NCBI RefSeq assembly: GCF_024713945.1
Contig: NC_134682.1
Coordinates: 3,417,001 to 3,481,000 of the forward strand
DNA length: 64,000 nt
Reading direction: 5' to 3'
Origin: Dermatophagoides farinae
Lineage: Eukaryota; Arthropoda; Arachnida; Sarcoptiformes; Pyroglyphidae
Both the position numbers and the translations under genes were made by a program. Shown one piece after another: positions 22,759 through 60,220 of the stretch. Each line of letters starts with the position of its first letter. The first letter of the stretch is position 1. A model generated the notes under the pieces. It saw only the letters and a list, made by a program, of their open reading frames with translations, was not told where the DNA came from and ran no database searches.

Positions 22759-24423
22759 TTAGATTTTCGAATGAATCAATCGAACCACCTGATAGGTTTG
22801 AAATGTACGAATTGTAGACCAAACAAATGCATCGCTTGTACCGACAATATTTGCACACATTATAGCAGCATTGTCAGCACCGATTACGGTTCCAGTACTC
22901 ATACCCGATGGTATACGTAATGAAGACCAAATATCGGCTTGTAATATTGAAACATCTGTTGTGGGTGGTGTGCTAATCACTGTTTATTTAGCAAAGGGAA
23001 AAATACAAAACAAAAAAAAACATTTGAATCATAAATATAAACTTGGAAAATCATTACAAATCATTACCTGGAATTGGAAGATTAGCTGCCAATACCGGAC
23101 CAAGACCATTACTCATACCGGCAATAGCAACAACAACTTTACAAGATGGCCATTGTAGAATTTTGGCTGCCATTTCCAATGTTTTCTGTGTAGATTTATG
23201 TGCCGATGCAACATGTACATCAACAACATAGATTTTATATCGATTCATCAATGTATCTTTAATTTTCATTGCATATTCTTTATCGGATGGTGATCCAACA
23301 ACAATAGCAACAGTTGGTGCTACAACACCTTCAATTTTTGACATATCCGGTTTTGTAGGTATCAATGAATTGAATAATTTCTGTGTACGTTCGGCAACAA
23401 TTTCAAAATTAGCTTTCACTAAATTCAATGCATCTTCATCGATCTTTGAATTGTCCATGTTACGATAAACTTGTTTGTCTAACATTAAACGTTTTTCACC
23501 ATTTGGCCATAAACGCCATGAATCATTATCGATTACATCAGCAACGACAATCTGTTTGATACCATTCTCTTCATATACACCAAATTCAATTTTCATATCA
23601 ATCAATGAATGATTAACCGTTTGCCAAGCTATTCATAAATATCATCATTAAATTAAATTAAATTCAATTCGAAAAAAAAGAAACAAATTTATCTAACCTC
23701 GTTCAAGTACTTCGAAAACTAAATTCGTTACACGATACATTTCCTGGACATGGTCAGCGGTAATAATCATATCACCAATATTTAATTTTGCACCAATCAA
23801 TGTTTCTTCCGACCAGAATGGATCATGATTAGCATCATCTTTGTAAAATGTTTCCAATTTTAATGGTGCAAATCGATAACCTTCTGGAACATGTGGATGT
23901 CTACGAAGAAATGAACCGGTTGCAATACGACGACAAACCCATTCAATCGGTATCATTGAACAACGTTTAGCAATAAATGAACGTTTTGAATCGGGATTTG
24001 ATTCCGCAACTCTTGATACAAAATGTGTACGTATACCGATGGCATTTAAATATTCAAATATAGCACAATTAGTTTGTGTAGAAAGAATTGATTTTCCAAC
24101 TAATGTATGTGATTTTGCACCATCACCTGCAGTGATACGATCCTTGCTCAATATATAAACGTGATTACGATGTTTTGCGTTGGATGATTTAAATGAATAA
24201 ACTTGTTTTGTTTTACCTTCGATCAAAATATCGCCAATATCAGATTTACTAATTTCTGTTTGTAAAAGAAGAAGAAAAAAATTTTTTTATTATTATTTAG
24301 ACTTGAATCTCGAATGTTTCATCATCATCATCATCATCATTTTTTTTTTTTTTTTTTGATCATTGATCAATTTGATTTAAGTACATTTATTGTTACGAAA
24401 TTTGAATTAATTAACTCACCCAT
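22759..24423 (-). CDS. PAICS: Bifunctional AIR carboxylase / SAICAR synthetase
   Basis: Four coding exons: 24423-24420 (ATG plus one base), 24255-23698, 23628-23068 and 22979-22759; 447 residues, close to the animal enzyme. It carries out two successive steps of de novo purine synthesis in the cytosol: carboxylation of AIR to CAIR and ligation of aspartate to give SAICAR. The SAICAR synthetase domain fills about residues 10-270: EGKTKQVYSF (nucleotide binding), KDRITAGDGAKSH, IEWVCRRIATGSFLRR, VVADVIDNDSWRLWP. The class II PurE-type AIR carboxylase domain fills about 290-447: VVGSPSDKEYA, VASAHKSTQKT, AIAGMSNGLGPVLAANLPIP and SSLRIPSGMSTGTV. All introns keep frame. The first coding exon is only four bases, yet the exon 2 frame has no ATG before EGK, which supports the split start. 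A TATCGATA word lies about 340 nt upstream. Confidence 0.96.
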
Positions 24424-26516: not shown

Positions 26517-28820
26517 ATGTTCAAAATGGCCGAAATAATTGGATTGATAAGAAAATTACCAAAACTATTCTTTATTATGATATTTCGTGATCTCGTGTAA
26601 GTTTGTTTTTTTTTTTTTTTTTTGCTGATTCCTGTGTGTTTTTATTGTTTTTTTTTTGTTGATATTTAATTCCATTGTGTTTGTGTGTTATTTTAGGTGT
26701 GCAATATTATTTTTCACATTTCAAATACGTATTCGATGGATCATACGTAGAAATCGTGTTTTGGTCAAATATTTTGATTATAATGTTCGCCGTCATCCAA
26801 ACAAAACGGCCATCAATTATAATGGTGAATGTTTTACATTTCAAAATGTTTATGATCTTGCACAGAAAATATCCAATTGGATCGAAGAATCATTACAACT
26901 TGGCCATGATGATGAATGGGAACGATGTAATAGTCCTAAACAAACCGGTGATGATGATTTTCCATTGAATCGTGAAGCAAAAATTTATCGAAAATTCGAA
27001 AATAATGCACGTTGTACACAGATTGGTCTTATGTTTGGTAATATACCGGAATTGGCAAGTTTCATAATCGGTATTGCACGTGTTCGTTGTTCAGCCGTAT
27101 TGTTCAACACAAATAATCGTCGTGATCTATTATTGAATGCATTTCATGCAACAAATTGTAAAGTGTTTATTTTTGAATCAAAATTTCTTTCAGCTATACA
27201 AGAAATAGCTCCACAACTGCCCGATATTCGATTTTTTATGTATGATCGAAATGAATCGAAAAATATTCTTATTGATCCCCATTATAATGGTATAAGTCGT
27301 CAGGATTTAGAATCCAAATATGAAGATCCAAAATGTCAAAAATTTGCTGCCATCTTGAATGCTTATCCAATAACAATGGTTAAAAAAAATTATCCATATA
27401 AAATGTCCGATATGATACAATTTATGTTCACATCCGGTACAACCGGTGGTAATATTAAATGTGTACCTGTGGACAATATACGTTATATTGGTGGAAATCT
27501 TTCACATGAATTAGTATTCGGTTTTCGTCATTCGGATCATTTTTATGTTTGTCTACCTTGTTATCATGCATTTGCCGGTGTTATTGGCTTGAGTACGATA
27601 TTCATCACTGGTAATACGATTACATTGGCTGATAAATTTTCAGCATCAAAATTTTGGAATGATTGTCGTATAAATCAATGTACAGTAAGTATATTTATCT
27701 ATTCATTATCATAATCAGCATTTAACCAATGAAATTTTTTAATTTTATTCAATTATTATTGATTAGATTGCGTTATATATTGGTGAAATATGTCGATATC
27801 TTCTAGCACAACCGGAACATTCGGATGATCAACGCCATTCATTACGAATGATGTTTGGTCTTGGCCTAAATAAAGAACATTGGATTAAAATACGTAAACG
27901 TTTTAATATACCAAAAATTGCTGAATATTATGGATCAAGTGAAGGAAATATTCTTATTGGTATGATGATGATGATGATGATTTGAAATCAAAAAATTCGA
28001 AAAAAAAATTTTCTTCATTTCATTTTTCAAAAAAGCCAATCATCAAAACGTACCTGGTTCATGTGGTTTCATTCCATATTATTATGGTCCATTACTTTAT
28101 ACATTGTGGCCATGTCATATAATTAAAGTGGATCCAATTACATTGGAATTGGTTCGTGATTCAAAAACCGGTCTATGCAAAATGGCACGTAATGGTGATC
28201 TAGGTATGATGGTCGGTGAAATACGTAAAGGACAAATTTTCACCGAATATCTTGGATATACATCTGCGAAAGAATCTACTAAAAAATTAATACGAAATGT
28301 TCGACAACATGGTGATTTTGTTTTCATTTCTGGTGATCTAATGGAAATGGATTTTTATGGTAATCTTTATTTTAAAGATCGTACCGGTGATACATATCGT
28401 TGGAAAGGTGAAAATGTTTCCACAACAGAAATTGAATCAATTATAACACAATTTATTAATCATCAAGACTGTATTGTTTATGGTGTCATTGTTCCTGGTC
28501 ATGAAGGCCGATGTGGAATGTTAGCCATCAATAGTAATAATAATGAAAATAATCATCAGATTAATCTAGATTCTTTATATGAATTTATGAAAAATCGTAT
28601 ACCCGAATATGCTATACCAAAATTCATACGATTCACACGAAAAATTCAATTGACTAGTACACAAAAATATATTAAATATCCATTACGTGAACAAGGTATC
28701 GATCTAAATCGATTAACTGATGATGATCAAATATATTATTTTGATCGTATCAAAGAAAAATATCATCCAATGAATCATGACGTCTATGATAAAATAATCA
28801 ATGGTTTCATACAATTCTAA
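26517..28820 (+). CDS. FATP-A: fatty-acid transport protein / acyl-CoA synthetase (derived group)
   Basis: Four exons: 26517-26596, 26697-27684, 27767-27959 and 28036-28820; 681 residues. This is the first gene of a five-gene array. The family (FATP/SLC27, ANL superfamily) activates long and very long fatty acids to CoA thioesters via an acyl-AMP intermediate at membranes, which drives uptake. A hydrophobic/basic N-terminus is followed by HPNKTAINYNGECFTF. The P-loop at about 272-281 reads TSGTTGGNIK, one residue longer than the usual TSGTTGxPK. Next come PCYHAFAG, DKFSASKFW, EYYGSSEGN and the FATP signature YFKDRTGDTYRWKGENVST (about 531-549). An extra hydrophilic segment (about residues 90-125) precedes IGLMFGNIPE. 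A candidate AATAAA lies at 28932-28937. The frame is intact across all introns, so the gene looks functional. Substrate specificity cannot be read from sequence. Confidence 0.9.
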
Positions 28821-31800
28821 ATGAATGAATGAATTTGATTATTTCAAAAACAAGAAAAATCTATCATTTCATCATCATCATCATCATTATCATAAACATT
28901 GAATTATTGATTGTTGAGATTATAATTCATCAATAAATCATTTCAAACATCAAAATAGTTCAACATAAAAACAAGTTTTTTTTTGATTTCTTCCTCCACA
29001 CCCATACAACAACAACTCGGTGACATTTGACATTTTCATTTTCGATTCATATTTTATTCTATTAAATTATAATTTCCAGATTTTTTTTTTATCTGTAGAA
29101 AAAATACCAAATGAGATTATTTGAATAATAATAAAATGAAAAAAAAATAATTTGCAAAAAAATCTTTGAATCTTTTACATTGAAATTATTGATTTGTTTC
29201 ATTTTAGATGATCTGATTTTTTTCAAACTTTTTTTTGATACAAAAAAAAATTATCAGAAATAGCTGTTTCACATGTCAAAATCATCAATATCCAATCGTC
29301 AAAACAACAACAACAACAATTAAAAAAATTAATGAGAACAAAAAACACATATTGTCCCGGCGATAATATTTGAAATGAAATGAGAAAAAAAAAGATTCAT
29401 TTTTTCGAATGATAATGTTTGTACATTATTTGTGTTTTAGGATACAATTTTAATCAAATATGAAGACAATCATGGGAAAAGAAGCCAAAAAAAAATGAAT
29501 ATAAATTTAAGAAGATTGGAATTTTTTCCTAACGTCGAAATTTGTCATTAATTACATTTCATTCAATCATCATATAACATTCCGAACGACAATTCATGTT
29601 TATTTATTGAAAAATTATGGAACGAATAAGTGAACAAATTAAATATTTTTTCAAACTTGTTTATTTAACGTTTGTTCGTGATTTAAGGTATGTCTGTCTG
29701 TTTTTTTTTCACGGTTATGAAATTTATATTAAGTAATTTTTCTCTACCGTTAAAAAAAATCCTTTTTTTATAGGTTTTTTGCAGTGATTATTAGACTTTT
29801 ACTTCGTCTGAAATGGAGTAATCAAGCGGTGGTCACTTGTTTCGATAAGGCTTGTCGTAAAAATCCTATGCGTACGGCAATCATTTATCAAGGACGTGAT
29901 TATTCATTTCAAGAGATTGAAAATTTAGCCAATAAAATATCCAATTGGTTTGAACAATGTCTTCATTTAGGTTGTGATGATGAATATGAAAAACAACAGC
30001 AAATCAAACAACGTGAAGAAGAAATGCAGCAACAACAAGGACAAGAGAATGAGAATTTATCACCAAATGTTATGAATTTAATTCGTCGACATCAAAATTC
30101 GATTAAAATTGGTCTAATGTTTGGTAATGTACCAGAATTTGCTAGTTTTCTGATCGGTATTGGCCGTGTAAGATGCGCATCTGTTCTATTCAATTTTAAT
30201 CATCGAAGTGATCTGCTTGTCAATGCATTTGAAGCATCAAATTGTAAAATATTTATTTTTGAATCCAAATATTTATCCGCAATAAAAGAGATTGCAACAC
30301 GGCTACCAGATGGCATTCGTTTAATAATGTATGATCGTAATATCATCAATCAAAATAATGATGGTACGACTTCATCAAAACATGGACTAAATCTTGATTA
30401 CAAAGGATTTACACGTGAAGATCTTATCAATGATAATATCGTTGAAGCGGATGAAAAATTTTCCCAGTTACTCGATTCATATCCGGTTACTAGTGTTCAA
30501 AAGAATTACCCATATAAAATTAATGATATTTTTTCCTATATATTTACATCTGGTACAACTGGTGGTAAAATTAAAGCTGCAGCAGTGAATAATTATCGAT
30601 TCTTGGGTATCAATTATTTGATGGATTTGTCATTTGGTTTGAAAACCAGTGATAATTTTTATGTTTGTGTGCCAATATATCATGGAATGGGTGCTGGTAT
30701 GGGTATTGGTTCAACATTAGTAAATGGTAATATAACAACATTGGTGGAAAAATTTTCGGCATCAAAATTTTGGAAAGATTGTTATGAAAATAAATGTACA
30801 GTAAGTGTATTCTTTATACTGTAAAATGATTGTTGTACATGGATTAAGTAAAATTTTCTCAATTTTTTTAGGCTGCTCTTTATATTGGTGAATTATGTCG
30901 AATATTATTAGCACGACCACCGGGTGAATATGATCGTAAACATATGGTTAAAAAATTTATTGGTGTCAGTATGAATAAAAAGATTTGGACCAAATTTATT
31001 GAACGATTCGGGATTCAAGATGTTCATGAATATTATGGTTCTACTGAAGGAAATGCCATTCTTTGTAAGTAACAATTTTTGTTGTTGTTCATATGAGATT
31101 TTGATTCATTTTTTTAAAGTTAATCTAATGCAAGTACCTGGAGCATGTGGATTTTTACCATATTATTATGAAAAAATTATGCGTCTATTTTATCCGATAC
31201 AATTTTTAAAAGTTGATCCAGATACTAAAGAATTAGTACGTGATCAAAATGGATTATGTATAACGGCTAAACCTGGTGAAACAGGAATGTTGGTTGGTGT
31301 TATACGACAAAATGTTCAAAGTTCACATTTTCTTGGCTATTCATCTGTGAAAGAATCATCGAAAAAATTAATAAAAAACGTACGACAAAAAGGTGATTAT
31401 GCATTTGTTTCTGGTGACTTAATGGAAATGGATTGTGATGGTAATCTTTATTTCAAAGATCGTACTGGTGATACTTTTCGTTGGAAAGGTGAAAATGTAT
31501 CGACAACAGAAGTCGAAACGATTATTTCACAATTTATTGATCATAAAGATTGTGTTGTATATGGTGTAGCCCTACCCGGTTATCCAGGTCGTTGTGGTAT
31601 GGTATCATTAACTGATCGTAATCTGGATCTCGAAAAATTTTATGATTGGATGAAAACACGTGCTCCTCAATATGCTATACCGAAATTTATACGATTCGTT
31701 GATCAAATCGAAACAACAACTACACATAAATATATTAAATATTCATTGCGTAATGATGGTATCGATCTTGATCGATTGAAATCAAATGAACAAATCTATT

Positions 31801-31883
31801 ATTTTGACCGTGATAATCAACGTTATCAATTGATGGATAAAGATGCTTATGAAAAAATTATTAATGGTACGATACGGTTTTAG
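28821..31883. repeat. Tandem duplication unit 1 (spacer plus FATP-B)
   Basis: The FATP-A to FATP-B spacer and FATP-B form a unit repeated directly in the next 3.06 kb. Both spacers begin with nearly the same sequence after a stop codon (GAATGAATTTGATTATTTC in the first copy). They continue in parallel through the same poly(T)/TTATCAG landmarks and end with matching leader sequence (CATTCCGAACGACAATTCATG) before the next ATG. Confidence 0.85.
29617..31883 (+). CDS. FATP-B: fatty-acid transport protein / acyl-CoA synthetase (derived group)
   Basis: Four exons: 29617-29687, 29774-30800, 30872-31064 and 31120-31883; 684 residues. Intron positions and phases (2, 0, 1) match FATP-A. The P-loop at about 282-291 reads TSGTTGGKIK, again one residue longer than canonical. 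The equivalent of the YHxxAG segment is YHGMGAG. The SSEGN-type motif is EYYGSTEGN, and the family signature YFKDRTGDTFRWKGENVST is intact. The N-terminal insertion is Glu/Gln-rich (QREEEMQQQQ) and ends before IGLMFGNVPE. Protein and introns are very similar to FATP-C, so the pair is a recent duplication. A candidate AATAAA lies at 32020-32025. Function is as for the family: esterification of fatty acids to CoA coupled to uptake. A binding or regulatory role instead of catalysis cannot be excluded because of the P-loop change. Confidence 0.9.
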
Positions 31884-34800
31884 ATGAAGGAATGAATTTG
31901 ATTATTTCGAAAACATGAAAAATTTATCATTTCATCATCATTATCATAAACATTGAATTATTAACTTCGATCACAATTTATCATAAATCTTTTCAAACAT
32001 CAAAGACCAACTGTAATCCAATAAAAACCCATTTTTTATTTCATCCTCCACACCCATACACATTTGACATTTTTCCTTTTGATTTATATTTTATTCTATT
32101 AAATTATAACTTTCAGACTTTTTTATCTGTAGAAAAATACCCAATGACATTATTTGAATAATAAAAATGAAAAAACAATTTAATTTGAAAAAAATCTTCG
32201 TATCTTTATCATTGAAATTATCGATTTGTTTCATTTTAGATGATCTGATTTTTTCAATCTTTTTTTCGATATAAAAAAACATTATCAGAAATAGCTGATT
32301 TAAATATCGACAAGCATCATAATGAATTAGTTATCAAAATCATCAACATCCAATTGCCAAAGCAAAAAAAAAAAATTTTAATGAGAACACAAAAAATACA
32401 TATTGTTCCGGTGATAATATGTCGAATAAAATAAGGAACAAAGATTCCTTTTTTTGAACGATAAATGTATGTTCATACATTATTTTTATTTTAGGGTACA
32501 AATTTACCCAAAAATAAAGACAGTCTTGCGAAAAGAAGCAAAAAAATTGATTATAAATATAAGCAAATTGGAATTTTTCCCTTTGCCAAAATTTGTCATT
32601 AATTTAATTCATTTCACTGTATCATCATATAACATTCCGAACGACAATTCATGTTCATTTATTGAAAAATTATGAAACAAATACTTGAACAAATTAAATA
32701 TTTTTTCTCACTTGTTTATTTAACGTTTGTTCGTGATTTAAGGTATGTTTGTCTATGTTTTTTTTTCTCGGTTATGAAATTTATGTTAAATAATTTTTCT
32801 GGACCATTAAAAAAATCTTTTTTTTATAGGGCTCTTGTAATTCTTATTAGAATTTTATTTCGTCTGAAATGGATGACATGGACTAACCAAACGGTGGTCA
32901 CTTGTTTTGATAATGTTTGCCGTCAAAATCCTACGCGTACGGCAATCATTTATCAAGGACGTGGTTATTCATTTCAAGAGATTGAAAATTTAGCCAATAA
33001 AATATCCAATTGGTTTGAACAATGTCTTCAATTAGGTTGTGATGATGAATATGAAAAACAACAACAAATCAAACAACGTGAAGAAGAAATGCAGCAACAA
33101 CAAGAACAACAGAATGAAAATTTATCACCAAATGTTTTGAATTTAATTCGTCGACATCGAAATTCGATTAAAATTGGTCTAATGTTTAGTAATGTACCAG
33201 AATTTGCTAGTTTTTTGATCGGTATTGGCCGTGTACGATGCGCATCTGTTCTATTCAATTTTAATCATCGAAATGATCTACTTATCAATGCATTTGAAGC
33301 ATCAAATTGTAAAATATTTATTTTTGAATCCAAATATTTACCCGCATTAAAAGAGATTGCAACAAGGCTACCAGATGGCATTCGTTTCATAATGTATGAT
33401 CGTAATATCATCAATCAAAATAATGATGATGGTACGACTTCATCAAAACATGGACTAAATCTTGATTACAAAGGATTTACACGTGAAGATCTTATCAATG
33501 ATAATATCGTTGAAGCGGATGAAAAATTTTCCCAGTTACTCGATTCATATCCGGTTACTAGTGTACGAAAGAATTACCCATATAAAATGAGTGATATATT
33601 TTCATATATATTTACATCTGGTACAACTGGTGGTAAAATTAAAGCTGCAGCAATGAATAATTATCGATTCTTGGCTATCGATTATTTGTTGGCTATACCA
33701 TTTGGTTTGAAAACCAGTGATAATATTTATGTTTGTGTACCAACATATCATGGACTGGGTGGTGTTATGGGTATTGGTTCAACATTAGTAAATGGTAATA
33801 CAACAACATTGGTAGAAAAATTTTCGGCATCAAAATTTTGGAAAGATTGTTATGAAAATAAATGTACAGTAAGTGTATTCTTTATGCTGTAAAATGAATT
33901 AAGTAAAATTTTCTCTTATTTTTTTAGGCCGTCATCTACATTGGTGAATTATGTCGAATATTATTAGCACGACCACCGGGTGAATATGATCGTAAACATA
34001 TGGTTAAAAAATTTATGGGTGTCGGTATGAATGGTACAGTTTGGACAAAATTTGTTGAACGATTTGGTATTCAAGATATTTATGAATATTATGGTTCTAC
34101 CGAAGGAAATACCGCTCTTTGTAAGTAACAATTTTTTTGTTGTTGTTCATATGAGATTTTGATTCATTTTTTTAAAGTTAATCTAATGCAAGTACCTGGA
34201 GCATGTGGATTTTTACCATATTATTATGGTAAAATTATGCGTCTATTTTATCCGATACATTTTTTAAAAGTTGATCCAGATACTAAAGAATTAGTACGTG
34301 ATCAAAATGGATTATGTATAACGGCTAAACCTGGTGAAACAGGAATGTTGGTTGGTGTTATACGACAAAATGTTCAAAGTTCACATTTTCTTGGCTATTC
34401 ATCTGTGAAAGAATCATCGAAAAAATTAATAAAAAACGTACGACAAAATGGTGATTATGCATTTGTTTCTGGTGACTTATTGGAAATGGATTGGGATGGT
34501 AATCTGTATTTCAAAGATCGTACTGGTGATACTTTTCGTTGGAAAGGTGAAAATGTATCGACAACAGAAATCGAAACAATTATTTCACAATTTATTGATC
34601 ATAAAGATTGTGTTGTATATGGTGTAGCCATACCCGGTTATGCAGGCCGCTGTGGTATGGCAGCATTAACTGATCGTAATCTGGATCTCGAAAAATTATA
34701 TAATTGGATAAAAACACGTGCACCTGAATATGCTATACCGAAATTTATACGATTTGTTGATCAAATCGAAACAACAACTACACATAAATATATTAAATAT

Positions 34801-34941
34801 TCATTACGTAATGATGGTATCGATCTTGATCGATTGAAACCAAATGAACAAATCTATTATTTTGACCGCGATAATCAACGTTATCAATTGATGGATAAAA
34901 ATGTTTATGAAAAAATTATTAATGGTACTATACGATTTTAA
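31884..34941. repeat. Tandem duplication unit 2 (spacer plus FATP-C)
   Basis: Second copy of the spacer-plus-gene unit, in direct orientation right after the first. Differences in the spacer are mainly substitutions and small indels in poly(A)/poly(T) and repeat tracts; the coding parts are closer still. Confidence 0.85.
32672..34941 (+). CDS. FATP-C: fatty-acid transport protein / acyl-CoA synthetase (derived group)
   Basis: Four exons: 32672-32742, 32830-33868, 33928-34120 and 34178-34941; 688 residues. It is a close copy of FATP-B in exons, introns and leader. The introduced differences keep the frame, e.g. a small insertion around KWMTWTNQTV near residue 40 and one extra Asp in NQNNDDGTTS. 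The P-loop at about 286-295 is TSGTTGGKIK; the next segment is YHGLGGVMG; EYYGSTEGN and YFKDRTGDTFRWKGENVST are intact. Intron 2 is about 12 nt shorter than its FATP-B partner. The intact frame argues that both copies are retained as genes. Confidence 0.9.
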
Positions 34942-36559
34942 AATGATCCAAAGGAAAAAATTTCCATTAAATGTTTACCATTTGTTTATGATAACAATAA
35001 TCATTGGTTCGGAAAAACAATAATGTTTATATTAATTTTTACAATTTTACGAACATGTATTCATTCAATCAATTAGTTATTTACAAAATTCAATGATAAT
35101 TTTTTTTCCAACTCCACTCATGTCTAATTTTTTTTCTCTTTCTTTCTTTTTTTTTGGTAAAATGTTAATGATGATGTTCATCATCATCGTATTTTAATTG
35201 CCCATGGCAATCCGTTGTATCCGATACGAATATTTTTCTTTATTATCCGGGAAAAAAACATCAAACAACAACAACATCACATAAACTAGAAGCAAGTTCA
35301 AATATTTTTTTTTCTACTTGTGTTCTTTATTTGAGAGACAACACACACACACGCACACATGATTTAATTTTTTGTTGCCCAAATGACCATGTGTAAAGAT
35401 TTTTGTTCCATCTTATTTTTTTTTTTCGTTTCCTAAGCTGATTATACATGTGTGTGTTGTGCTCACACATAGAGAGAAAGAGAAAGAGAGCTTGATTTGA
35501 CCGTCGCCCCTTGACTTCCTTTCTTCTTCTTCTTTCGTGATCCGTTTTTTTTCTAATCGATCTATCGATTTATCAATCGGATCTTGGATACTTTCGTTGC
35601 TTATCTCTATCTGTATGTGTGTGTGTGTGTTTGTGTTTGTGTGGACAATCGATCATAAAAAATTTAATCATCGTCTTTGATTATTTCCGTTATCATTCTT
35701 CAAGAAAACAAAAAGACAGACAAATATTCATTTCATCTTGTTATCCAATGCTAGTCATCAACCTAAACCTAAATTATTTTATCATCAGCAAAAAAAAAAT
35801 TTCCTCTTGTTCCATTTCTCAAATGTTCACATGGTTGATAATGATTCCAATTAATGATTCGATTCAATTTCAATTGATTGATTGAAAATAGGTTGAAAAT
35901 AAACCATGTTTTTCTGTAATCATTTTTGTGATAAAACAATTCAATGAATTAAATTCTCAATTGATTTGTTAACATTTGTGTGTCCCAATTTTTTTTTTTT
36001 TTTTGTTCTCTTGAAAAACAAATTTTTATCACATGATTCGATAAAAATGATGATGATAATGATTGATTTTCTTTTTCGTTTTTATTACCATGAAAATGAA
36101 ATAAAAATATGAATTTCATATATTTTTTTTACCTGGTTCAGTGATTGTTTTCCTATTTTCGTTTCATTTTTTTAAAAATTTTCCTTTTCAACCATATATT
36201 TTTTATTATTAAAATTGAATTTACATACAATAATTATAGCCAATTTTCATTTAAATTTTTTTTGTTTTGTTCATCATTTATTTCCTCAAAAAATATGCGA
36301 ACAACAAATAATCACAGTAAAAAAAAAACAAGAATGTGGTGATCAAAACATCCTTTAACTGTGAAATCAAATGTATTTTTATAAGTTGTGTAATTGACGT
36401 ATTCAATGACGTTATTCATTTTTGATAACAAAAAAATAAAAATAAAACAACAACAACAAAAATTCTTCAAGTGGAAATCCCAAATTTTATTTTTTGTTCA
36501 AATCTCATCACCTCAACCCATATTCGTTGTTAATTATTTCGCCATTCGACAACATAAAA
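34942..36559. other. Spacer between FATP-C and FATP-D
   Basis: 1.6 kb of A+T-rich DNA with CA/TG and GA runs and poly(T). It does not obviously continue the 3 kb duplication unit beyond the FATP-C stop. I see no supportable gene. Confidence 0.5.
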
Positions 36560-38958
36560 ATGTCATTCATTATAGCTGAAATGATACGAAAATGGAGCAA
36601 ATTATTCTATGTAATATTAACAAGAGATGTTCGGTATGTGCAAATATTGAAAATTCTTGTATTTAATTTTTTTGTTTTACATACACACTAGATCCATATT
36701 CTTGTTATTTACATTTCAAATCAAAATGTTTTGGTATAAACGCAAAAATCGTATTATGTTACATTTTTTCGATGAAAATGTACGAAAATTTCCAAATAAA
36801 ACGGCTATCATTTATAATGGTGAACATTATACATTTGAATATGTTTCCAATCTTGCTAATCGTATATCGAATTGGATTGAATCAACATTAAAATTTGGTC
36901 ATGATGATCAATGGGAATCATTAAATCAGGTTTCGGTGATTGGTAACAATGACAATGATAATGTTAATAAAAAAGAAACTATGATTGAATCAAAAATCTA
37001 TCGACAATTTGATGATAATTTACAAACAACTCAGATCGGTCTAATGCTTGGTAATATACCGGAAATAGCCAGTTTTATTATTGGCATATCAAGAGTACGT
37101 TGTTCGGCCGTTATGTTCAATACAAATCATCGTTTGGATACATTGATCAATGCATTCAATGCAACGAATTGTCGAATATTCATTTTTGAACGGAAATATT
37201 TTGATACCATTAAAGATGTTGCTGAACAATTACCGGATATAAAATTTTTTATGTATGATCGTGATGCCATTAAACAAAAACAATCGCCAACAGAATTACT
37301 TTCAATTGATTTCAATTATAATGGCATTAGCCGGGATGATCTCATGATGATCAATAATAATAATGATGATGATGATGATGCTAATTCAATCATTGAACGT
37401 GCAATACAATTCTCTCGTCTATTACAATTATATCCAATTGTATCGGTGAAGAAAACATATCCATATAAATTTACGGATAAAATGATCTATATATTTACAT
37501 CCGGTACAACCGGTGGTAATATTAAAGCATCACCAGCTGATAATGTACGACAGATTGCATCATATTTTTCACAATGTCGTGCATTCGAAATTAACCATAA
37601 TGATAATGTTTATATCTGTCTTCCTTGTTATCATTCATTTGCCGGTATTACCGGTCTTGGCTATATGTTTATTGGTGGTACAACCATTACATTGGCGGAT
37701 AAATTTTCAGCATCAAAATTTTGGAAAGATTGTTGCCAATATCAATGCACGGTATGTTATAGTAATGATGGTGATTGATTGATTGATTTTTTCTCATTTG
37801 TTTTTTGTGTAAATCTTAATTCGAACAAAACAAAATAAAAAAATGAAAATTTTCTAGGCTGCCATTTATATTGGTGAAACATGTCGATATTTACTAGCAC
37901 AACCACATCGGCCAGAAGAAACGAAACATTCATTACGAATTATGATGGGACCAGGTATGAAACGTGAAATTTGGCGTGAATTTCAAACTAGATTCCATAT
38001 CCGTCGTATTGGTGAATATTATGGATCAACCGAAGGCAATGTTCAAACATGTAATAATATTTTGAATTTTGAAAAAAATTTCTAAAAATTCTATTTATTT
38101 CTTTCACATATTTATAGTCAATATGACAAATGTCGAAGGATCATGTGGATTCATACCTTATTATTATGGATTTCTTTGTAAATTTTTCTTCCATGTTTAT
38201 CTGATCAAAGTTGACCCAGAAACAATGGAACTTGAACGTGATCGTTATGGTCTTTGTAAATTTGCTAGACCAGGTGAAACTGGAATGCTTGTCGGTCAGA
38301 TACGTCCTGGACATTCGTTTTCAGAATTTCTTGGCTACACATCAACACAGGAATCGACGAAAAAAATTGTTCGTAATGTTCGTTCAAAAGGTGATTTTGC
38401 ATTCGTTTCCGGTGATCTAATGGAAATGGATTTTTATGGTAATCTTTATTTTAAGGATCGTACAGGAGATACATTTCGTTGGAAAGGTATAAAATTCAAA
38501 TTGAAATTAAATCAATTCCTAATAATGATTTTTTTTCGTTTTGCATCGTCAAAATCATAGGTGAAAATGTATCAACAACCGAAATTGAAGATATTATTTC
38601 ACAATTTACCAATCATAGTGATTGTGTTGTTTATGGTGTTACCGTACCACATTGTGATGGTCGGGCTGGTATGCTGGCCACAAATGATCGACAATTAGAT
38701 CTGAATGGATTTCATCAATTTATGCGTGCACGTGTACCCGATTATGCTATACCGAAATTCATACGTATCACTGATGATATCCAAATGACATCCACATTGA
38801 AATTCATTAAATATCCATTACGTAAAGTTGGTTTTGATTATTCACAAATGAAACCAGATGATCAGCTTTATTATTTTGATCGTCAACAATCAAAATATCT
38901 ACTTGTGGATGGTGAAACATACGAACGAATCAATAATGGACAGATAAAAATTTCATAA
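36560..38958 (+). CDS. FATP-D: fatty-acid transport protein / acyl-CoA synthetase (derived group)
   Basis: Five exons: 36560-36633, 36692-37751, 37858-38050, 38118-38486 and 38561-38958; 697 residues. It shares the introns of FATP-A to C and has one more, phase 1, splitting the signature between RWKG and ENVST, exactly where FATP-E also has one. The P-loop at about 294-303 is TSGTTGGNIK. Other motifs: PCYHSFAG, DKFSASKFW, EYYGSTEGN and YFKDRTGDTFRWKG. Asp/Asn-rich insertions lie near residues 95-120 and 225-245. It is closer to FATP-A than to B/C in the segments compared by eye (FIIGI.RVRCSA, PDIKFFMYDR). A candidate AATAAA lies at 39277-39282. Membrane-associated fatty-acid activation is inferred from the family. 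Confidence 0.9.
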
Positions 38959-41900
38959 AACAAAAATGATGGAATTTTTTTTTTCGAATCATCTCATTGC
39001 TCATACTAATGGCCCATAGATGGCGTAAAATGTTTGATGAATAATTTTTTGTTTCAAATCAAATTTTGGTTTTTTTTTTTGATTAATTTCTGGTTTTATT
39101 TTGTGTTATGTTGTTGTTGTTGTTTTTATTGTTTCCTAACAATTATAACTGTGTAACCATTGAATTCAAATGAAACATTTTTTTTTTTGGAAAAAGAAAA
39201 AGCCATATATTGTGCTTGTATGCATCCATTAATGGATGTAATTTTGTTTTTTCATTTGAATCTCAATGTTTGAATCAATAAAAGAATGGATCATCATCAT
39301 TATTTACACATCAATAGTTTTGAGAAATAAGTAGAGAAAAAAAATCAATCATTTAATTGTTGATCAACAGATTCTGACGTCAAAAATAATGATGGTTCGA
39401 TGAATGTTTAGTGAAAGAGAAAAAAAAATTATAAACAATGAATCGTTTTTAGTGTTTTTTTTTCTCATTGAAAAACAATTTTCGTTGATAAACAATGAAA
39501 CAATATTTTTTTTTCGTTCTTGCTGCTTACCACTACATTTTCTGTGTATTAATTAATTAATTGTTGAATGAAATCATTAAAAATTGGTTGCAATATGATT
39601 ATGATTAAATTGCATGAAATTAATTTATTCACAGGTTTTTTTTCACTCTCTCTCTCTCTCTCTCTCTCTTTCTTTTTAGAATTTTCAATAAAACCAAATA
39701 TGTATTGAATTTCAGATTTGGAATAAAATTTAGGTCGAAAATGTTCAACTATATACTAATGATTAATGCTTGATTGATTGAAAATTATCCATCAAGCAAG
39801 CGTTAATTGATGGATAATTTTCTTAGTGTTCAAATACGAAAGAAAAAGTTTCAGGAAAAAAATTTTCCAGCATTCATTTTCACACTAATAAACAGATATT
39901 GTTTTATTTATGCATAGAAAACAAAAGATCATATTCACCTGTTGTGTTGTGTTGTGTTTTTTTTTTGTGCAAACATTCCACACAAAAAACAAAAAAAAAC
40001 CGGAACTTTTATTGATAACGGAACAACAACAACAACAAATACAGGAACGTATGTACGTAAAACATTTTTTTCCACAATCGATTTATTTGATTTTCTCTTT
40101 TTTTTTTGATCAACGAGATAAATTAACAACAAATTTAGGTCCAAACATTCAAGTTTCTCTCACTCTCTCTCTCTTTCTTTCTTATCATTTTGATTTTTCC
40201 TATATCTCATTTGATTATCATCATTGTCAATCATCAAATGAAGAAAAAAAATGACTATCATTAATGATCCTCGGGCCAATCAATCCAAGAAAAAAAACTA
40301 GCTGCAAATAGGGCCAACAAAAATCATTTCAAAATTTTTTTTCCATTTCTTACTTGGTTGATTTTTTTTTCTCCTTTCTTTTTTCTCTAACGTTTTTTTT
40401 TCTTATTTAAACGTAATCATCCATTATTCATCAATGATAGAAATATCAGTATTGTAACGACGGACGATCATTACAAGCAACGGTGTTGTGTAGGAAAAAA
40501 AAGGAAAAAAAGAGAGAGAGAGAGAGAGAGTGAGTGAGTGAAAGTGAAAAAAAACTGGATATCGGTCAACGAAACCGAAAATTCGTATAAAGATTGAGAG
40601 TTGTAGAGAAAAAATGCACAATAAAAACTAGAGGAAAAATGTAAAAGAGAAAATTAAAAAAAAAAAAAAAAAATGGATGGATACTTTTACATGCACACAC
40701 ACACACACAAACACGATGTATTAGGATGGATGTTGAAAATCTTAAACATCTTATCAACATTGGCACTGCACATATACATATTTTTTATATGAAAACAGTA
40801 AAACGATAAACAACAGCAGTGATCCTCATCATCATCATCATCATCATCATATCAATCAGATACAAAGTCAATCGATCGATTGATCGAACAATCATTCATT
40901 CAATCAATCAATACAGTCATACACATCATTCAACAACAATAAATAACAGGCAAAGTTGATTCGAAAAGAAAAAAAAAATTTATATATAAAAAACAGTGAA
41001 ACAAACATCAAAATAAAAAGATTGCAGAAATCGTCATTATGTGATCATCAATGAAAAAAAGAACGTAATCACGAAACTCAAACAACAGTCATTCATATTT
41101 GTGCATGTGTGTGTGCGTACGTCATCATAAAATCATCGTGTTTTTTTTTGTTTGGATTTCTGTTTTTCACTGTTTTATTATTATCGTCACATTCACTTTT
41201 TAATCCATTCATTTGAAAATCTGATTCGTAACATTTTTTGTTTTTCTTGTGAAAAAAAAACAAAAAATCCTTTGATTGCATTTGTGTGTTTTTTTTTTTT
41301 TTTTTTTTTTTTTGGTGGAAAACAAGATTTTTTTTTTTTGCTATAAAATCTGAAAAAATACGACCAACATTCGTTGTGGGGGATTCCGAAAAAAAACCAA
41401 AAAAAAAAAAAAACCAAAAAAAAAACAAATAATTTTAACAGCCGCCACACTTCAATCATTATCAACATTACAAATTTAATCTTTCAATTCTTATTGTTGT
41501 TATTGTTGTTGTTGTTGTTGTTGTTGTTATTGTGATTGAGGCTAACGACGACAACAACAACCACCACCATCACCACCACCATCAACAAATAAATGATGAA
41601 AAAAAATATGCTGTTCACATTCAAACGATGACGTCATAATCAATTATTAATTGATTGGGCAGAAGAAAAAAAAATTTCAAAACTGAATAGCAAAAAAAAA
41701 AAATTCGAAAGAAATAAAAAAATTCTACCAATTCATTATTGCAATTCTGATTAATCATCATTGAATACGTTGACAAAAAAAAATTTCATTCATTCATCTG
41801 TTTGATTGGGATTATTGCTCATTGATTATCATTTTGTGTTTGTTTGTACTTTGATAATTAAAAAAAAAATTCCATCATATTGAAAAAAAATCATCATCAT

Positions 41901-41962
41901 CATCATCATCATTGCTTTTGTTCCAAAAGTCAATTTATTGATTAATAAAACACCATACAAAA
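38959..41962. other. Spacer between FATP-D and FATP-E
   Basis: 3.0 kb with the probable FATP-D 3' UTR at its left end and the FATP-E promoter and 5' UTR at its right end. In between are a CT run (39645-39669), GA runs, CA/TG repeats, ATC repeats and long poly(A)/poly(T). No supportable coding sequence. Confidence 0.5.
39645..39669. repeat. (CT)n microsatellite
   Basis: About 12 CT units in the FATP-D to FATP-E spacer. Confidence 0.9.
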
Positions 41963-44900
41963 ATGGTACTAGTCTATGTAACATTATTTGTCGCCCATAT
42001 TGGTGAACAAGTTATCAATTTTAATCTATGGACAATTGCATCATTATTATTGGCCAGTGGTCTAACATTTTTAGCATTTTTCTGGGATTTTGTACGACGA
42101 TTTTATTTTACATTCTTTCGTGATATAAGGTTCGTAATAATAATAATGATGAATTTTTTTTCCTTGTTTCGATAATTGTATATTATATGATAATAATAAA
42201 ACAAATTTATATCCTCGATATAAATCAATTGATCGATTTAACAACAGCAACAACAACAACAAAAATAAACAAAGAAAAATAAAACCTAGCTTTTTCAGAA
42301 GAAGGAAACATGAGAAAAGTTTACTGAAATTTGAATCAAAATGAAAACAAAAAATAGATAAAAGAACAGCAACTATATATTCATTTTACATTACGAAATT
42401 GACATTTCCCATTTATAATCGAGGAAAATCTAAAATGAAAAAAATTTTTTTTTCTTTAATTTCGATCAATCATCATCATCATCATCGTTTATTGATGATG
42501 ATGATGAATAATAAAGTTTCATGAATCAAATTTTAATATTATCATCATCATCATCATCATCATTGTCTATGATTTGATGATTTGCCAACGCATTTGCATC
42601 TCCGTTTCCACCATCATCAAATAAACACACACACACACACATGTATTATCTATATTCACACTTTTATCAATTGTTTGGTAAATTCATATTTTTTTTCTTG
42701 TCTGCTGTTTTTATTATTACCATTTATACCATTATTATTGTTGTTGACGAGGACATTTTAAGATTAAAAAAAAAAAATATGTTTTTGTTTGATTGTTTGT
42801 TTGTTGTCTGTTTGTCTGTTTGTGTGTGTGAGTATAATTATAATTATCACACACACACACACGAGTTTGACAGCGATTTTTATTTTAATGCGAAATGAAA
42901 ATGGATTTTTTTTTTCATTGAAAATGGATGATGATGATGATGATCATGATTGTGATTGTGATTGTGATTGAGAAAGATGAGAACAACAACAACAACAAAC
43001 AACAACAACAACAAACACATATCCTCTTTTTTTTGTCTTGTTTTGCTGTTTGTCAAATTCATTGCTTTGTTAACCCGCTAAACATAATTATTATTATGTG
43101 ATTTTTTTTTATTTTGTTCTTGTCTCCTCTATATTTGCCAAAATGTCATCATTTTGTTTGTTTGTTTGTTGTTTTTTCTATTTGTAAAAAAAATTTTGTT
43201 TTTTTCCGCTTACAAGGTTTCTGATTTTATTAGCAAAAAAAACAAGAGACAAGAGACAAAAGACAAAAAGAGTTTTGATTGATGACCATCAACACAACCA
43301 ATCAAAATTTTCATCATCAACATCATATTTATCAAACTGAAAATTATTATTGTTTACATCTAGTGTTGTTCCGGTGATGACCAAAATTCAATCATCATCA
43401 TCATCATGAGGATGACCATTCATTCTCTGAATATGACGATGGTGTGATTTGTGTTCGTAAGAATTGATTTCCGATAAAAAAACAACTAACCAAACGAAAA
43501 ACATTTGCATTTTTTGTTTTGTTTTGTTTCAATCAAAATTCCGATTTGTACAAAAATATCAAAGAAAGAGAGAGCGAGAGAGATGGAGAGAATTGATAAT
43601 CAATAATATTTAGACGGATATCCTGTTGTTGTTTATCATTATCATCGTCATTGACAATTTTCTTTGCCTGTATTTTTTTTTCATTCTAAATTTTGCTCTT
43701 GTCATAATTAGTAATATAAATCTGATATATTATGATAATGTATGATATAGATGGCCAGTAATAATTTCTTTTCATTTTCATATCTTGTCTTATCTTAATT
43801 TCTTTTCGTTTGCTTTCTGCTACTTCTGCGGCTGCTACTGTTGTTGTTGTTGTTATTGTTGTTGTTGTTGTTGTTGTTGTTGCAAAAAAAAAAGACATTA
43901 TCCAATTATCCAACATGATTATTCATAATTAAAAACCTTGAAATGAAAAAAAAAATCATGAAAATTCTCATTTTTAAAGGATTTAAAGAACTTTTATGTG
44001 GTTTCAATGTCAATTTTTTTCTTGCACTTTCATCACCTTGGTCTAGAATCGAATTTCTTTTTTTGTACCAAAAAAAAAACAAAACAAAAAAAATCCATTT
44101 TTGCATCGATTTCATTTCCAATCAAGGATATTGATCTCGTAAAAAAAATCCTCCATCAATAAAAAAAAAAAAAAAAAATAGTGAATGAGAGAGAAATGTG
44201 CAATCCGCTAATGATTGGTAATCATAATAATTTCAAAATAAATGATTTTTGTCGTTACATTGTAATATATAGGGACAAACAAGCAAGGTGAATCAATACA
44301 AATGTCCAGTCATAATACGATGATGATGATGATGAGAGTCCTTCATGGATCAATTTTTGTTGAATTGCTGATTGATAAATTGATTGATTGATTGATTCAT
44401 TTTTTTTCTATACTTTTTATTTCAACAGTGCCGGATATGCATTGGTTAAATCTCGTTATTTTATGATTAAAAATCGTAATTCTAATGTACCGAAATTATT
44501 TTCATTATTGGCCGAAAAATATCCAGATAAAATATGTTTCTATTATAAAGATGAACAATGGACATATGATGATATTGAAAAATTTTCAAATAAAGTTGGC
44601 AATTATTTTGCATCCATTGGTTACAAGAAAAATGACGAAATTGCATTGGTAATGAATTCACGGCCAGAATTTGTTGGCATTTGGTTAGGTTTAGCCAAAC
44701 AAGGTATTGTAACGGCATTTATTAATACAAATCAACGTATGGAAACATTAGTACATTCAATCACTGTTGTCAATTGTAAAGCGGTAATTTTTGATGCTAC
44801 ATTAGCTAAAAGTAAGTGGTTTTTTGTTTCGTCTTGATTACACTTGAAAATTATTCTGAATATTTTTTTTTTATTATTTATAGATATTGAAGAAGCAATA

Positions 44901-46555
44901 CCATTGATTGAAACAAAACGTCCAGGTATGATGTATTATAGTTATGTTGGTACAGATCCACCATCGGTAAAAGCATCAGAACAGGATTCAGAAACGATCA
45001 GAAAAATCAATGCAAAATGTTTGGATAATTGTATCGAAAATATGATCTATACACGGCCACATGCTATTGATGATCAATCAATGGGTGATAAATTATATTA
45101 TATTTTTACATCCGGTACAACTGGCCTACCAAAAGCGGCTGTCATTCGTCATCATCGTTATATATGGATTGGAATGATTTTACGGAATTTATTCCGCATT
45201 AGTGATAATGATATTCTTTATTTAACATTACCATTATATCATAATAATGCCGGCACCATTGGCACATGTCAATCGATTATATTCGGTACAACAATTGTAT
45301 TGCGTGATAAATTTTCAGCATCACAATTCTGGGATGATTGTGGCCGTTATAATTGTACGGTATGTGTTTATTTTTTTTCAAATTTTCTGTGACATTTTTT
45401 TTCTCTTATGAAAATTTTAATTCAATTTAATGATCTTGATAAGGTGGCCATGTATATTGGTGAATTATGTCGATATTTATTGGCACAACCGAAAAAAGAA
45501 ACCGATACAATGCATAAAGTACGTTTAATGTTTGGCAACGGTTTGCGGCAAGAGATTTGGAGGGATTTCAAAAATCGTTTTCAAATCCGCCAGATTGGCG
45601 AGGTTTATGGTTCGACCGAAGGAAATGCCAATGTTGGTAAGTATCTGTGTGTGTGTTCTTATAGGATTGATTTAATGATTTTCAAAATTTTTATTTACCA
45701 CTCCCATTTGGTAGCTAACTTTGATTTCACTGAAGGTGCATGCGGTATTATACCATGTTGTGTTCCATTCATTTGTCGTTTTGTATTTCCGGTTACGGTT
45801 ATTCGTGTTGATCCAGCAACTGGTGAACATATCCGCGATCGTAATGGTTTATGTAAATTGATTAAATCAGGTGAAATTGGTGAAATTGTCGGCATGATAC
45901 GAGAAGATCCAGGGCAATCATATCCTGGTTATGTGAACAATGATGCAACAAAGAAAAAAATCATACGAAATGTTTTACATCATGGTGATAGCGCATTTCT
46001 TTCCGGTGATCTAGTCGAAATGGATTTCTATGGTTATCTTTATTTTCGTGATCGTACTGGCGATACGTTCCGTTGGAAAGGTATGAGAAAGAAAGAAATT
46101 GTTTTTTACATTTGTTTGAAAATTTTAATTTAATTTTCTTAATTTTGAAATTCATTCAAGGTGAAAATGTATCCACAAATGAAGTTGAAGCTGTCATACA
46201 GAAAGTAGTCAAACTATCCGATTGTGTTGTATTCGGTGTTTCCATACGTAATTGTGATGGTAAAGCCGGTATGGCCGTTATTGCCGATCCAAATCATACG
46301 GTTGATGTGGAAAATTTATATTATCAATTGGAAAAACGTTTACCAGCATATGCAGTACCATTATTCATACGTATAGCACCGAAAATTGATTTGACAGCAT
46401 CATTTAAATTGTCTAAATTTTCATTGGAAAAAGATGGTTTCAATATTAGTCATATTCATGATCCATTATATTATCTGGATCGTAAATCTAAACAATATAT
46501 TCGTATGGATCAAAATGTTTATGATGATATTCAAAATGGCCGTATTTTCTTGTGA
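41963..46555 (+). CDS. Fatp: FATP-E: conventional fatty-acid transport protein (SLC27-type)
   Basis: Six exons: 41963-42129, 44429-44811, 44884-45359, 45444-45636, 45715-46080 and 46161-46555; 659 residues. Exon 1 encodes a 55-residue N-terminus with a membrane segment (IASLLLASGLTFLAFF) that the other four genes lack. The P-loop at about 259-267 is the canonical TSGTTGLPK. Then come PLYHNNAGTIG, DKFSASQFW, EVYGSTEGN and the signature YFRDRTGDTFRWKG|ENVSTNEVE, split by an intron. Length, motifs and membrane segment match animal FATP1/4-type enzymes, which couple uptake of long-chain fatty acids to CoA activation at the plasma membrane or ER. Intron 1 is 2.3 kb, by far the longest here. An extra phase 1 intron between exons 2 and 3 has no counterpart in A-D. 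It is probably closest to the ancestral copy of the array (inference). A candidate AATAAA lies at 46964-46969. Confidence 0.93.
42130..44428 (+). other. Long first intron of FATP-E
   Basis: 2.3 kb with a donor GTTCGT and an acceptor TTTCAACAG. It contains ATC, TTG, CA and CAA repeats. Its length in a genome of short introns suggests regulatory content or an unannotated alternative 5' exon; I see no coding sequence in it. Confidence 0.6.
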
Positions 46556-50817: not shown

Positions 50818-51223
50818 ATTATAATTTTGATGACGATGATAATAATAATAATAATTTGGGTCCGAAAAAACTCGAAAAATTTTTCTGCTAACGGTATAAG
50901 AAACAAGTAGTGATTTTTTTCCTAGAAATTTATTAAAAACCTTAATTTATTCGTTAATAATCGACAATTGACAACACTTACAAAGTTGCACATCATTGCT
51001 CACCCACCCACCCACAATCAACATTTTTATTATTACATATCTAATTTACGTCTATGAAAATATACGTCTTACGTCTTTGATTATAGAAGAATTTTGATTC
51101 CTCGAAAAGAATTTCAAATAATCATTGAATTTATTTTCATTTTTTATTTACAAATTATGAATTTTTTTTATAATCACTGAATAATTATCAATTATAAAAA
51201 TCTTCAATTAATCCATTGACAAA

Positions 51224-53709
51224 ATGCAACAACAACAACAACAACAACAACAGCCACAACAATCAAAACAAACAGAAAATTCGAACGAAACTATTTCAAC
51301 TTCAACGGCTACGACGACTAAATTGTTACGGCAAACGAAATCACCACGATCATCGTCGCGTTCAACATCACCCTTAAGTCTTCAGATTACTACAACGGTC
51401 GATTCGGTAAAATCAATAAATCCTATGAAAATTGAATCAACCGAGAAGAAAAGTTCGAAATATAAACGGAAAAATATCTGTAATGATGATGATGATGATC
51501 AAGATTGTTGTCCAGATTCATATCCGTCATCTTCTTCATCAAGAACACCAACACCATCGACTACACCGACATCAAGCCGATCTCCATCATTACGACAATC
51601 ACCATCATCATTGACGACGACCACAACAACAACATCAGGACCTTTGTCATCAATCGATGAGAAAATCATCACTTCTTCATCATCATCACAATCTTCGGCT
51701 AAAAAGTATAATAATGAAAATAAAAATGTACGAAATCATTCTCGTATGAATCCAATATTGGAACAGCAACAAAATCTTGTACGACCATTGCAACCAACTC
51801 AAGCTGAATTACCGATAAAACCATTATATTATCAGCAAACAAATGAACAAAAAGAAAAACAACAAATGACAATGATAATGATTACCAATCCTGATCAACA
51901 ACAACAAATTCACAAAGGATCAGAAGATCAAAGAAGCGGTCGATTAGCAGTAGGAGGAAAAGGAAATCATCATCGGGAACAACCGAATCATAAGCATTTG
52001 AATATTTATGAACAACAAAAATTGGCTAATAACAACATACAATTCGAAGTAGAGAAAGCATTTTTTGGACAATCAACATTACAAACACAAGGATTCATCA
52101 CAGCACAACAACATCAAGCATATCATTATCAACAAAATCATCATCATCATCAAAATCAATCGAAAATTTCAGCCATTATTCAACAGCAACAGCCATATCA
52201 TAAGAAAATATCTAAACCAATGATAGAAAAACGTCGACGGGATCGTATTAATCGTTCATTGAGTACATTAAAACAATTAATTATCGATTCAAAACGTTAT
52301 CCAATATCGAATGTAAGTCAATAACAGAATATGATATAATTTTTATAATTTTACTGGTTTTGTTTTACCTCGTTTTTTTGTAGTATAATAAGTCACGTTT
52401 CGAAAAAGCCGATATTTTAGAAATAACGGTAAAATATCTTGAATCATTAGTTTTGGAAGAACGACGTATATATCAACAAGGTTTTGATGATTGTAAAAAA
52501 CAATTATCACAATTTATAAATGAACATTTTAACAATGATGATGATAATAATAGCAATCGGAAACAACAGAAACGAGATTCAGATAATAATTCCAATGATG
52601 AAAATCCTCAATCAATAAAAATGGTTACCGATGATGATCAACAACAACAAAATCAAAATGTTCATCCAGTAAACAATGATGCTAATGTTACTGATGATGA
52701 TAATCAACAACAACAGAAACAAATATTCATGTCAACATTCAATAAAATAATGGAACATTTAGAATTAGTGGGTGAAAAATTGTTTAAAGAAAAACAAGGA
52801 AAAATAATGAGCGTTAATCTTTCATCATTAATTGCCGAATTAAATGAAATTAAAGGTCGTAGTTCATCCATTAGTGGTGGCGGTGATTCCGATGGTCATT
52901 ATTCGGCCGATGAACAACAACAAAATTGTTTCAATGATCATCATCATCATGGTGGCGGTAATAGTTCTGGTTATCAATCTGATAATATATTTTCAACATG
53001 GAATACAACATCGATAGAATCAACATCATCAATAAATCAAAAATCATATGGTGTCATACAACATACTAGAAATTATTTGGAAAAAAATAAACAACAAGAA
53101 TCATCAACATCATCATCATCATCAATTAAAGAAGAAAATCATTCGATTTCATCATCATCATCATCAACGTTGAACAATAATAAAGATTTGGATCAACAAT
53201 CTAAACATTTAATTAAGAAATTAGATCATCTTAGCCTGATGGAACAACATCGACATCGTAGAACTAGTGGTGGTGGTGGTGGTGGTGGTAATAGTGGTCA
53301 TTCATCAACAATGGCCACAAATGATTACGAACAACAACAACAACAACAAATATATCATCCGCTTAAATCTAAATTACTATCATCATGTGGTTCATCATCA
53401 TCATCGAATTCTCCTTCTTTTTCATCATCAACATGTTCATCATCATCATCATCAACAAAATCTGAATATTCACCAAGTTATTCAACATTATTATTAGCTA
53501 ATTCGAAAATTATTCAACATCAACAACAACAATCACCACAACAGCAACAAAAATCATTACGACCAATTGTTGATGCAAATCCATCACCATTTTATACTGA
53601 AATAACATTATCACATCCAAGAACTAATTTTGTTGGTAATGAACGTAATGGAAGTGAATTACCAAATTATGAAGCAATATGGCGACCATGGGGTTGTGGA
53701 CATCAATGA
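51224..53709 (+). CDS. HES gene 1: hairy/E(spl)-type bHLH repressor with internal WRPW
   Basis: Two exons, 51224-52312 and 52384-53709, joined in phase 0 inside the bHLH; 804 residues, long for the family. Residues 1-325 are low complexity (Q, S, T, P). The bHLH lies at about 329-390: basic region KPMIEKRRRDRIN with the Pro typical of HES proteins, helix 1 SLSTLKQLIIDS, then FEKADILEITVKYLESL. An Orange-like segment starts with YQQGFDDCKKQLSQF; a Gln/Asn/Asp-rich stretch of about 80 residues then intervenes before FNKIMEHLELVGEKLF, so the domain may be split. The tail has Gly, Ser and Gln runs and ends EAIWRPWGCGHQ: the Groucho-binding WRPW is followed by five residues, whereas in most family members it is the very end. 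Expected role: DNA-binding repressor that recruits Groucho, often downstream of Notch or in segmentation and neurogenesis. A candidate AATAAA lies at 53942-53947. Confidence 0.92.
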
Positions 53710-58956: not shown

Positions 58957-59094
58957 TCACCATGGACGCCATACATTTTCATCATCATCAAAACAATCTT
59001 GTTGCCGTCGTGGTTGCTGTGAATCATCATGTTTCATAATCTTTAGATTTAATGGATGATTTTCATGTTGTTGATGATAATCTGATCCATAACC

Positions 59095-59128
<34 letters not shown>

Positions 59129-60075: not shown

Positions 60076-60220
60076 TTTGTCATTCAATCGTAAATCAAAC
60101 TAAGAATTTTTTCTTGGTTTTGTTTCTCTTTCTTGAACTAGAACAAGATATAGACTGTTATTATGATATGCAACGATACAATTTATATACCTTTTGGTCC
60201 GCTTGTTTTTTGAATATATA

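Follow-up and report, generated by a model that had tools for sequence, protein, structure and literature searches.

Five FATP-type genes in tandem in Dermatophagoides farinae, four of them with an altered P-loop

Fatty acid transport proteins (FATPs) are membrane-associated acyl-CoA synthetases in which trapping of the fatty acid as acyl-CoA drives its uptake. A 64,000-nucleotide stretch of the Dermatophagoides farinae genome (hereafter the window; contig C6:3417001-3481000, in a genome of 62,435,336 bases in 22 contigs) carries five genes of this type, here called A to E, and four of them, A-D, have a P-loop that is one residue longer than that of E and has lost its proline. Are A-D still acyl-CoA synthetases, and how did they come to stand side by side? 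All five genes are complete and spliced, are arranged head to tail along the + strand from the start codon of A at 26517 to the stop codon of E at 46555, and translate from GT-AG models with no internal stops. A preliminary description of the locus had claimed five intact FATP genes on one strand within 26517..46555, and the complete models agree with it exactly at both limits. Judging from the retained motifs and the constraint on their codons, we think that A-D are probably working acyl-CoA synthetases with an altered substrate range. Splice sites were placed manually, guided by homology and without transcripts, and are all GT-AG. The gene models are as follows.

26517..28820 (26517-26596, 26697-27684, 27767-27959, 28036-28820), + strand: gene A, divergent FATP-like, 681 amino acids, 4 exons; GT-AG model, Pfam AMP-binding at 107.6 bits and AMP-binding_C
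29617..31883 (29617-29687, 29774-30800, 30872-31064, 31120-31883), + strand: gene B, divergent FATP-like, 684 amino acids, 4 exons; gene model, AMP-binding and AMP-binding_C found exon by exon, 89.2% identical to C
32672..34941 (32672-32742, 32830-33868, 33928-34120, 34178-34941), + strand: gene C, divergent FATP-like, 688 amino acids, 4 exons; gene model, AMP-binding at 104.5 bits, FATP2 as best PDB match (9.4e-88)
36560..38958 (36560-36633, 36692-37751, 37858-38050, 38118-38486, 38561-38958), + strand: gene D, divergent FATP-like, 697 amino acids, 5 exons; gene model, AMP-binding at 109.3 bits, FATP2 as best PDB match (1.1e-81)
41963..46555 (41963-42129, 44429-44811, 44884-45359, 45444-45636, 45715-46080, 46161-46555), + strand: gene E, conventional FATP, 659 amino acids, 6 exons, with 2.3 kb between exon 1 and exon 2 downstream; gene model, AMP-binding at 181 bits, passes NCBIfam PRK08279, FATP2 as best PDB match (3.5e-117)

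Two protein searches of the mite's own genome, one with C and one with E, located a sixth FATP gene, F, at C2:83011-85761 (L060:1011-3761), unlinked to the array. These searches score best candidates only, and a family size of six is in principle a lower bound; the other matches were weak (best E 1.2e-8) and we take them to be other acyl-CoA synthetases. F has a conventional layout, one intron that is unique to it, and a P-loop that reads TSGTEG, with glutamate, instead of TSGTTG. A tblastn search of the window with A-F (E up to 0.1, low-complexity filter on) returned no FATP pieces beyond the modelled exons, and none of 27 candidate stretches in viral contigs encoded a relative.

An altered P-loop in a FATP-type framework

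Family membership was supported by domains, signature and nearest known proteins. Pfam AMP-binding (PF00501) scored above its cut-off in A, C, D and E at full length and, for B, in its main exon, and AMP-binding_C was detected in A, B, C and E. The signature of FATPs and very-long-chain acyl-CoA synthetases, YFxDRTGDTxRWKGENVST, is present in all five genes, as the preliminary description had stated, and is split by an intron in D and E; the corresponding region of F reads YFKDRCGDTFRWKGENIST. In each of the three proteins searched against the PDB (C, D and E), human FATP2 (SLC27A2; 9vzp) was the first match and led the next family by more than 200 bits, with E values (3.5e-117 to 1.1e-81) that exclude chance. 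FATP2 resembles the mite proteins in domain order, FATP signature, TEGN motif and C-terminal lysine, though the lysine column, retained in A-F, is alanine in FATP2 entry 20zn; it differs from A-D in their P-loop, with its extra residue and without proline, in an insertion of ~35-41 residues, and in identity (31-33%, compared with 38-40% for E and F). For the two proteins scanned against NCBIfam, C and E, the top two families were the bacterial long-chain acyl-CoA synthetases PRK08279 and FadD6 (NF006134, NF038342). The PRK08279 cut-off of 625 was just passed by E (626.4) and missed by C (485.4). All six mite proteins have, close to the N-terminus, a hydrophobic stretch that is a candidate membrane segment (Kyte-Doolittle 19-residue maxima 1.46-2.28); the best window holds a charged RD pair in A-D and is uncharged in E and F, and exon 1 is shorter in A-D.

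Nothing else in A-D is as unusual as the P-loop insertion, which the preliminary description did not mention. E reads TSGTTGLPKAA at this point; the sequence is TSGTTGGNIK in A and D and TSGTTGGKIK in B and C, one residue longer and with the proline lost. With its canonical TSGTTGLPK and its narrow pass of the PRK08279 cut-off, E is, on its sequence, a FATP with the TSGTTGxPK P-loop and earns the label conventional that it had been given. The form TSG(T/S)TGxPK is also retained in human FATP2 and in all 80 bacterial relatives that we compared, and the insertion occurs in 0 of the 80, a sample that leans towards conventional forms because its members were the best 80 of 495 for a query that combined E, F and FATP2. 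With a P-loop that is one residue longer and without proline, A-D are better classed as FATP-like, by descent and signature, than as typical FATPs.

How far the change extends was read from 104 near-invariant sites, defined as columns with at least 95% conservation across 80 outgroup rows, namely FATP2 and 79 of the 80 bacteria (one row shorter than 540 residues was dropped; another alignment used 34 of the 80). Of these sites E retains 97, F 92 and A-D 88-89. Twelve are altered in every one of A-D; three of these are altered in E and F too, four are retained in one of the two, and five are retained in both. Among the five are the proline of the P-loop and the GNGL asparagine, both of them present in 80/80 outgroup rows; the GNGL loop has become GLGL, GVSM, GVGM or GPGM in A-D. 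The insertion of ~35-41 residues lies ahead of the IGLM(F/L) strand. A-D retain TSGTTG with the lysine after it, the YH of motif A4, YGS(T/S)EGN, KDRTGDTxRWKGENVST and the C-terminal lysine, which in adenylate-forming enzymes are the motifs for ATP and catalysis.

The main exon of D was modelled with AlphaFold2 from an alignment of 40 rows.

36693..37751, + strand: main exon of D, which carries both TSGTTGGNIK as its P-loop variant and the ~35-41-residue insertion; alignments and AlphaFold model

The model had a mean predicted local distance difference test (pLDDT) score of 86.3 and a predicted template modelling score (pTM) of 0.86. It was weakest in the long insertion, where residues 99-109 fell below a pLDDT of 50, and the P-loop block (271-280) reached 68. 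The best PDB match in Foldseek was the N-terminal domain of mycobacterial FACL13/FadD13 (5zrn; E 3e-13, template modelling (TM) score 0.57). Of the 50 matches listed, those that are named enzymes were adenylate-forming, with TM-scores of 0.53-0.62. The main exon of D is thus confidently predicted to form the N-terminal domain of an adenylate-forming enzyme, with an ordinary fold in which the P-loop insertion sits in a loop.

Could A-D nonetheless be pseudo-enzymes, unable to adenylate because of the altered P-loop and acting instead in fatty-acid binding, in transport or as partner subunits? The inserted residue, the lost proline and the twelve sites altered throughout A-D, of which five are unchanged in both E and F, would be expected of such proteins. 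Yet alongside TSGTTG they retain the lysine after it, the A4 histidine, the YGS(T/S)EGN motif, the C-terminal lysine and the FATP signature in its entirety, and the count of 88-89 near-invariant sites compares with 97 in E and 92 in F. We rank this possibility next after active enzymes and regard it as unlikely.

Descent, duplication and constraint

Protein identity separates the genes into a close pair, B and C (89%), and more distant members: A and D are 58% identical, A or D and B/C 49-51%, E and F 48%, and A-D are 36-40% identical to E or F. Identity to human FATP2 is 31-33% for A-D, 38% for E and 40% for F. A maximum-likelihood tree was built from the six mite proteins together with FATP2 and 18 bacteria drawn from the set of 80. 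Its branch uniting A-D received 100/100 support, which bears out the earlier claim that they form a separate divergent group, and the branch holding all six mite proteins apart from FATP2 and the 18 bacteria also received 100/100. The best tree joined E and F (89.3/84; approximately unbiased (AU) test p 0.618), and the test also retained trees that placed A-D with E (p 0.40) or with F (p 0.147). A tree joining E, F and FATP2 without A-D was rejected (AU p 0.00025), a weak test because FATP2 fell among the bacterial sequences and the deep relations are weakly resolved.

Gene structure is shared across the family. All six genes agree in the position and phase of three introns, and each has an internal exon that measures exactly 193 nucleotides. 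A phase-1 intron (after LAK in E) is common to E and F and absent in A-D, and a phase-1 intron within WKG^ENV is common to D and E and absent in A-C and F, so that F, 48% identical to E, differs from it in this intron. An order of duplication with D nearest the founder, followed by a line A-B-C that lost the WKG^ENV intron once, was considered and withdrawn, as 58% identity and a weak branch (68/68) place A with D.

The youngest step is recorded in DNA. The B/C duplication unit comprises spacer and gene, and its two copies, 28250-31882 and 31331-34940, are 87% identical.

28250..31882, + strand: copy 1 of the recently duplicated unit behind B and C (spacer and gene); 87.1% DNA identity to 31331-34940, from an identity profile; its left end (28250) also aligns by way of the last exons of A and B, which are homologous
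31331..34940, + strand: copy 2 of the B/C duplication unit; DNA alignment and identity profile

A unit that spans spacer and gene fits unequal crossing-over between neighbours. The growth of the A-D group by tandem duplication is supported, and B/C is a recent duplication. The preliminary description had proposed a lineage-specific expansion: this is likely for the youngest pair, B/C, whose silent divergence (dS) is 0.086, and unproven for A-D as a whole, at dS ~0.9-1.0.

Substitution rates, estimated by the Nei-Gojobori method, suggest that A-D evolve under constraint at the codon level. The ratio of replacement to silent divergence (dN/dS) is 0.60 for B/C, below 1 at Fisher p 0.019; it is 0.36-0.47 for the other A-D pairs, whose dS of 0.92-1.03 is near saturation, and 0.39-0.64 between A-D and E or F, with dS above 1. 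Differences between B and C are unevenly spread. Exon 3 (window 30872-31064 and 33928-34120) is 87.6% identical, compared with 96.6% and 100% for the flanking introns, and the amino-acid differences are clustered, 17 of them in the densest 64 codons (window scan, permutation p 0.013). Positive selection in this exon was considered and rejected: silent and replacement differences are both raised, pN/pS is 0.43, and the amino-acid excess is not significant (Fisher p 0.055). The simpler reading is uneven divergence or gene conversion, perhaps with a conversion boundary.

These results bear on three further explanations. First, A-D may be an old arthropod FATP subfamily in which only B/C is recent, a proposal about age that is compatible with active enzymes. 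The pairs other than B/C, at dS 0.92-1.03 and 49-58% protein identity, indicate that the group is not young; the joining of all six mite genes at 100/100 argues the other way, as does the rejected tree of E, F and FATP2, within the weakness of that test, in which FATP2 was the sole other animal FATP compared. We hold an old subfamily to be possible, though not the likelier case. Second, the array could be selectively unimportant, its redundant copies drifting under relaxed constraint. A dN/dS of 0.60 for B/C is high for an enzyme and would suit such drift, but five frames have stayed open, the B/C ratio is below 1 and the older A-D pairs stand at 0.36-0.47, and we find this quite unlikely. Third, that B and C, or more copies, are alleles or mis-joined copies in the assembly is hardly credible, adjacent and similar as B and C are: their upstream spacers differ by 16% and their exons by 4-12%, against a heterozygosity of 0.52% in the available text on the chromosome-level D. 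farinae assembly (62.43 Mb, in which chromosome 2 carries Der f 1; PMC11074847), so they are not two alleles, and A and D have just 49-58% of residues in common with the other copies.

Neighbouring genes and other loci

Just upstream of the array, on the - strand at window 23054-24286, lies a PAICS-type purine gene (SAICAR synthetase and AIR carboxylase). A CLIP/masquerade-type serine protease homologue occupies window 18737-21101 on the + strand, with three CLIP_SPH_mas stretches followed by trypsin-domain pieces in adjoining open reading frames. Downstream of the array are two helix-loop-helix open reading frames in opposite orientations, at window 51212-52321 (+) and 58960-60099 (-).

Elsewhere in the genome, a cysteine-protease exon on contig C2 is that of Der f 1 (PDB 5vpk), with 66/66 residues identical, which fits D. 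farinae as the species. Within C2:4450601-4454300, Der f 1 (L153:24-955) is followed ~1.7 kb downstream on the same strand by a divergent gene (L153:2647-3525), recognised by eye as a Der f 1-like cysteine protease. An ML-domain gene on contig C1 (L063:1441-1845), the one of seven family matches that was compared with the PDB, shows only moderate likeness to Der p 2 and Der f 2. This had at first spoken against Dermatophagoides, before the Der f 1 match; Der f 2 itself was not located by that one comparison.

Proposed origin, function and significance

The founder of A-D would have arisen by duplication at the array locus, probably of an E-like gene, and would have acquired the extra P-loop residue, the surface insertion of ~35-41 residues and the changes at conserved sites before it multiplied; B and C would have separated recently through unequal crossing-over. 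At the membrane, each array protein would convert fatty acid and ATP to acyl-AMP and then to acyl-CoA, trapping the fatty acid in the cell, and the altered P-loop and GNGL loop of A-D may shift the choice of acids or the rate. More tentatively, and with rather less conviction than we attach to working synthetases of altered range, A-D might constitute a distinct, FATP-derived class of mite proteins, in which the longer P-loop and the changed GNGL loop serve new acyl substrates (such as omega-hydroxy or very-long-chain acids from skin) or a role as fatty-acid carriers without enzymatic activity.

House dust mites feed on shed skin and other organic debris, and the likely use of working A-D synthetases would be in assimilating dietary lipids from skin flakes or in making cuticle lipids; the preliminary description had suggested cuticle, storage or skin-derived lipids as a possible reason for the array. 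In the related sheep scab mite, skin lipid is considered a likely energy-rich food in the available text of one report (PMC6806590). A stage transcriptome paper on D. pteronyssinus (PMC12105342) contained none of the terms fatty acid transport, very long-chain, acyl-CoA and SLC27 in a term search of its available main text.

Several points weigh against this account of A-D. First, the loss of residues kept in 80/80 outgroup rows, among them the P-loop proline and the GNGL asparagine, makes reduced activity of A-D possible. Second, D gave no AMP-binding_C match in the Pfam scan at E up to 0.001. Third, the dS values near 1 make the A-D dN/dS ratios rough. Fourth, the tree favours E with F over E as the nearest relative of A-D (AU p 0.40 for the latter), and with A paired with D the loss of the WKG^ENV intron in A, B and C would have occurred twice. 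Lastly, the dietary or cuticular use goes beyond the sequences themselves, and a comparison of mite genomes, in its available text, describes gene families of fat-feeding mites as evolving faster and as contracting, not expanding (PMC8175442).

Expansion of this family has a parallel among mites: FATPs are among the top expanded families in a mite of a different order, according to the available text of that study (PMC7936031). In the available text of the open-licence literature we found neither the D. farinae FATP array nor the P-loop variant described. We therefore regard the array as a known enzyme family that has expanded modestly, with a P-loop variant for which no report was found in that literature. 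Sharing a change in a near-invariant ATP loop, A-D offer a concrete candidate for mite lipid handling and a natural experiment in how far the adenylation P-loop tolerates alteration.

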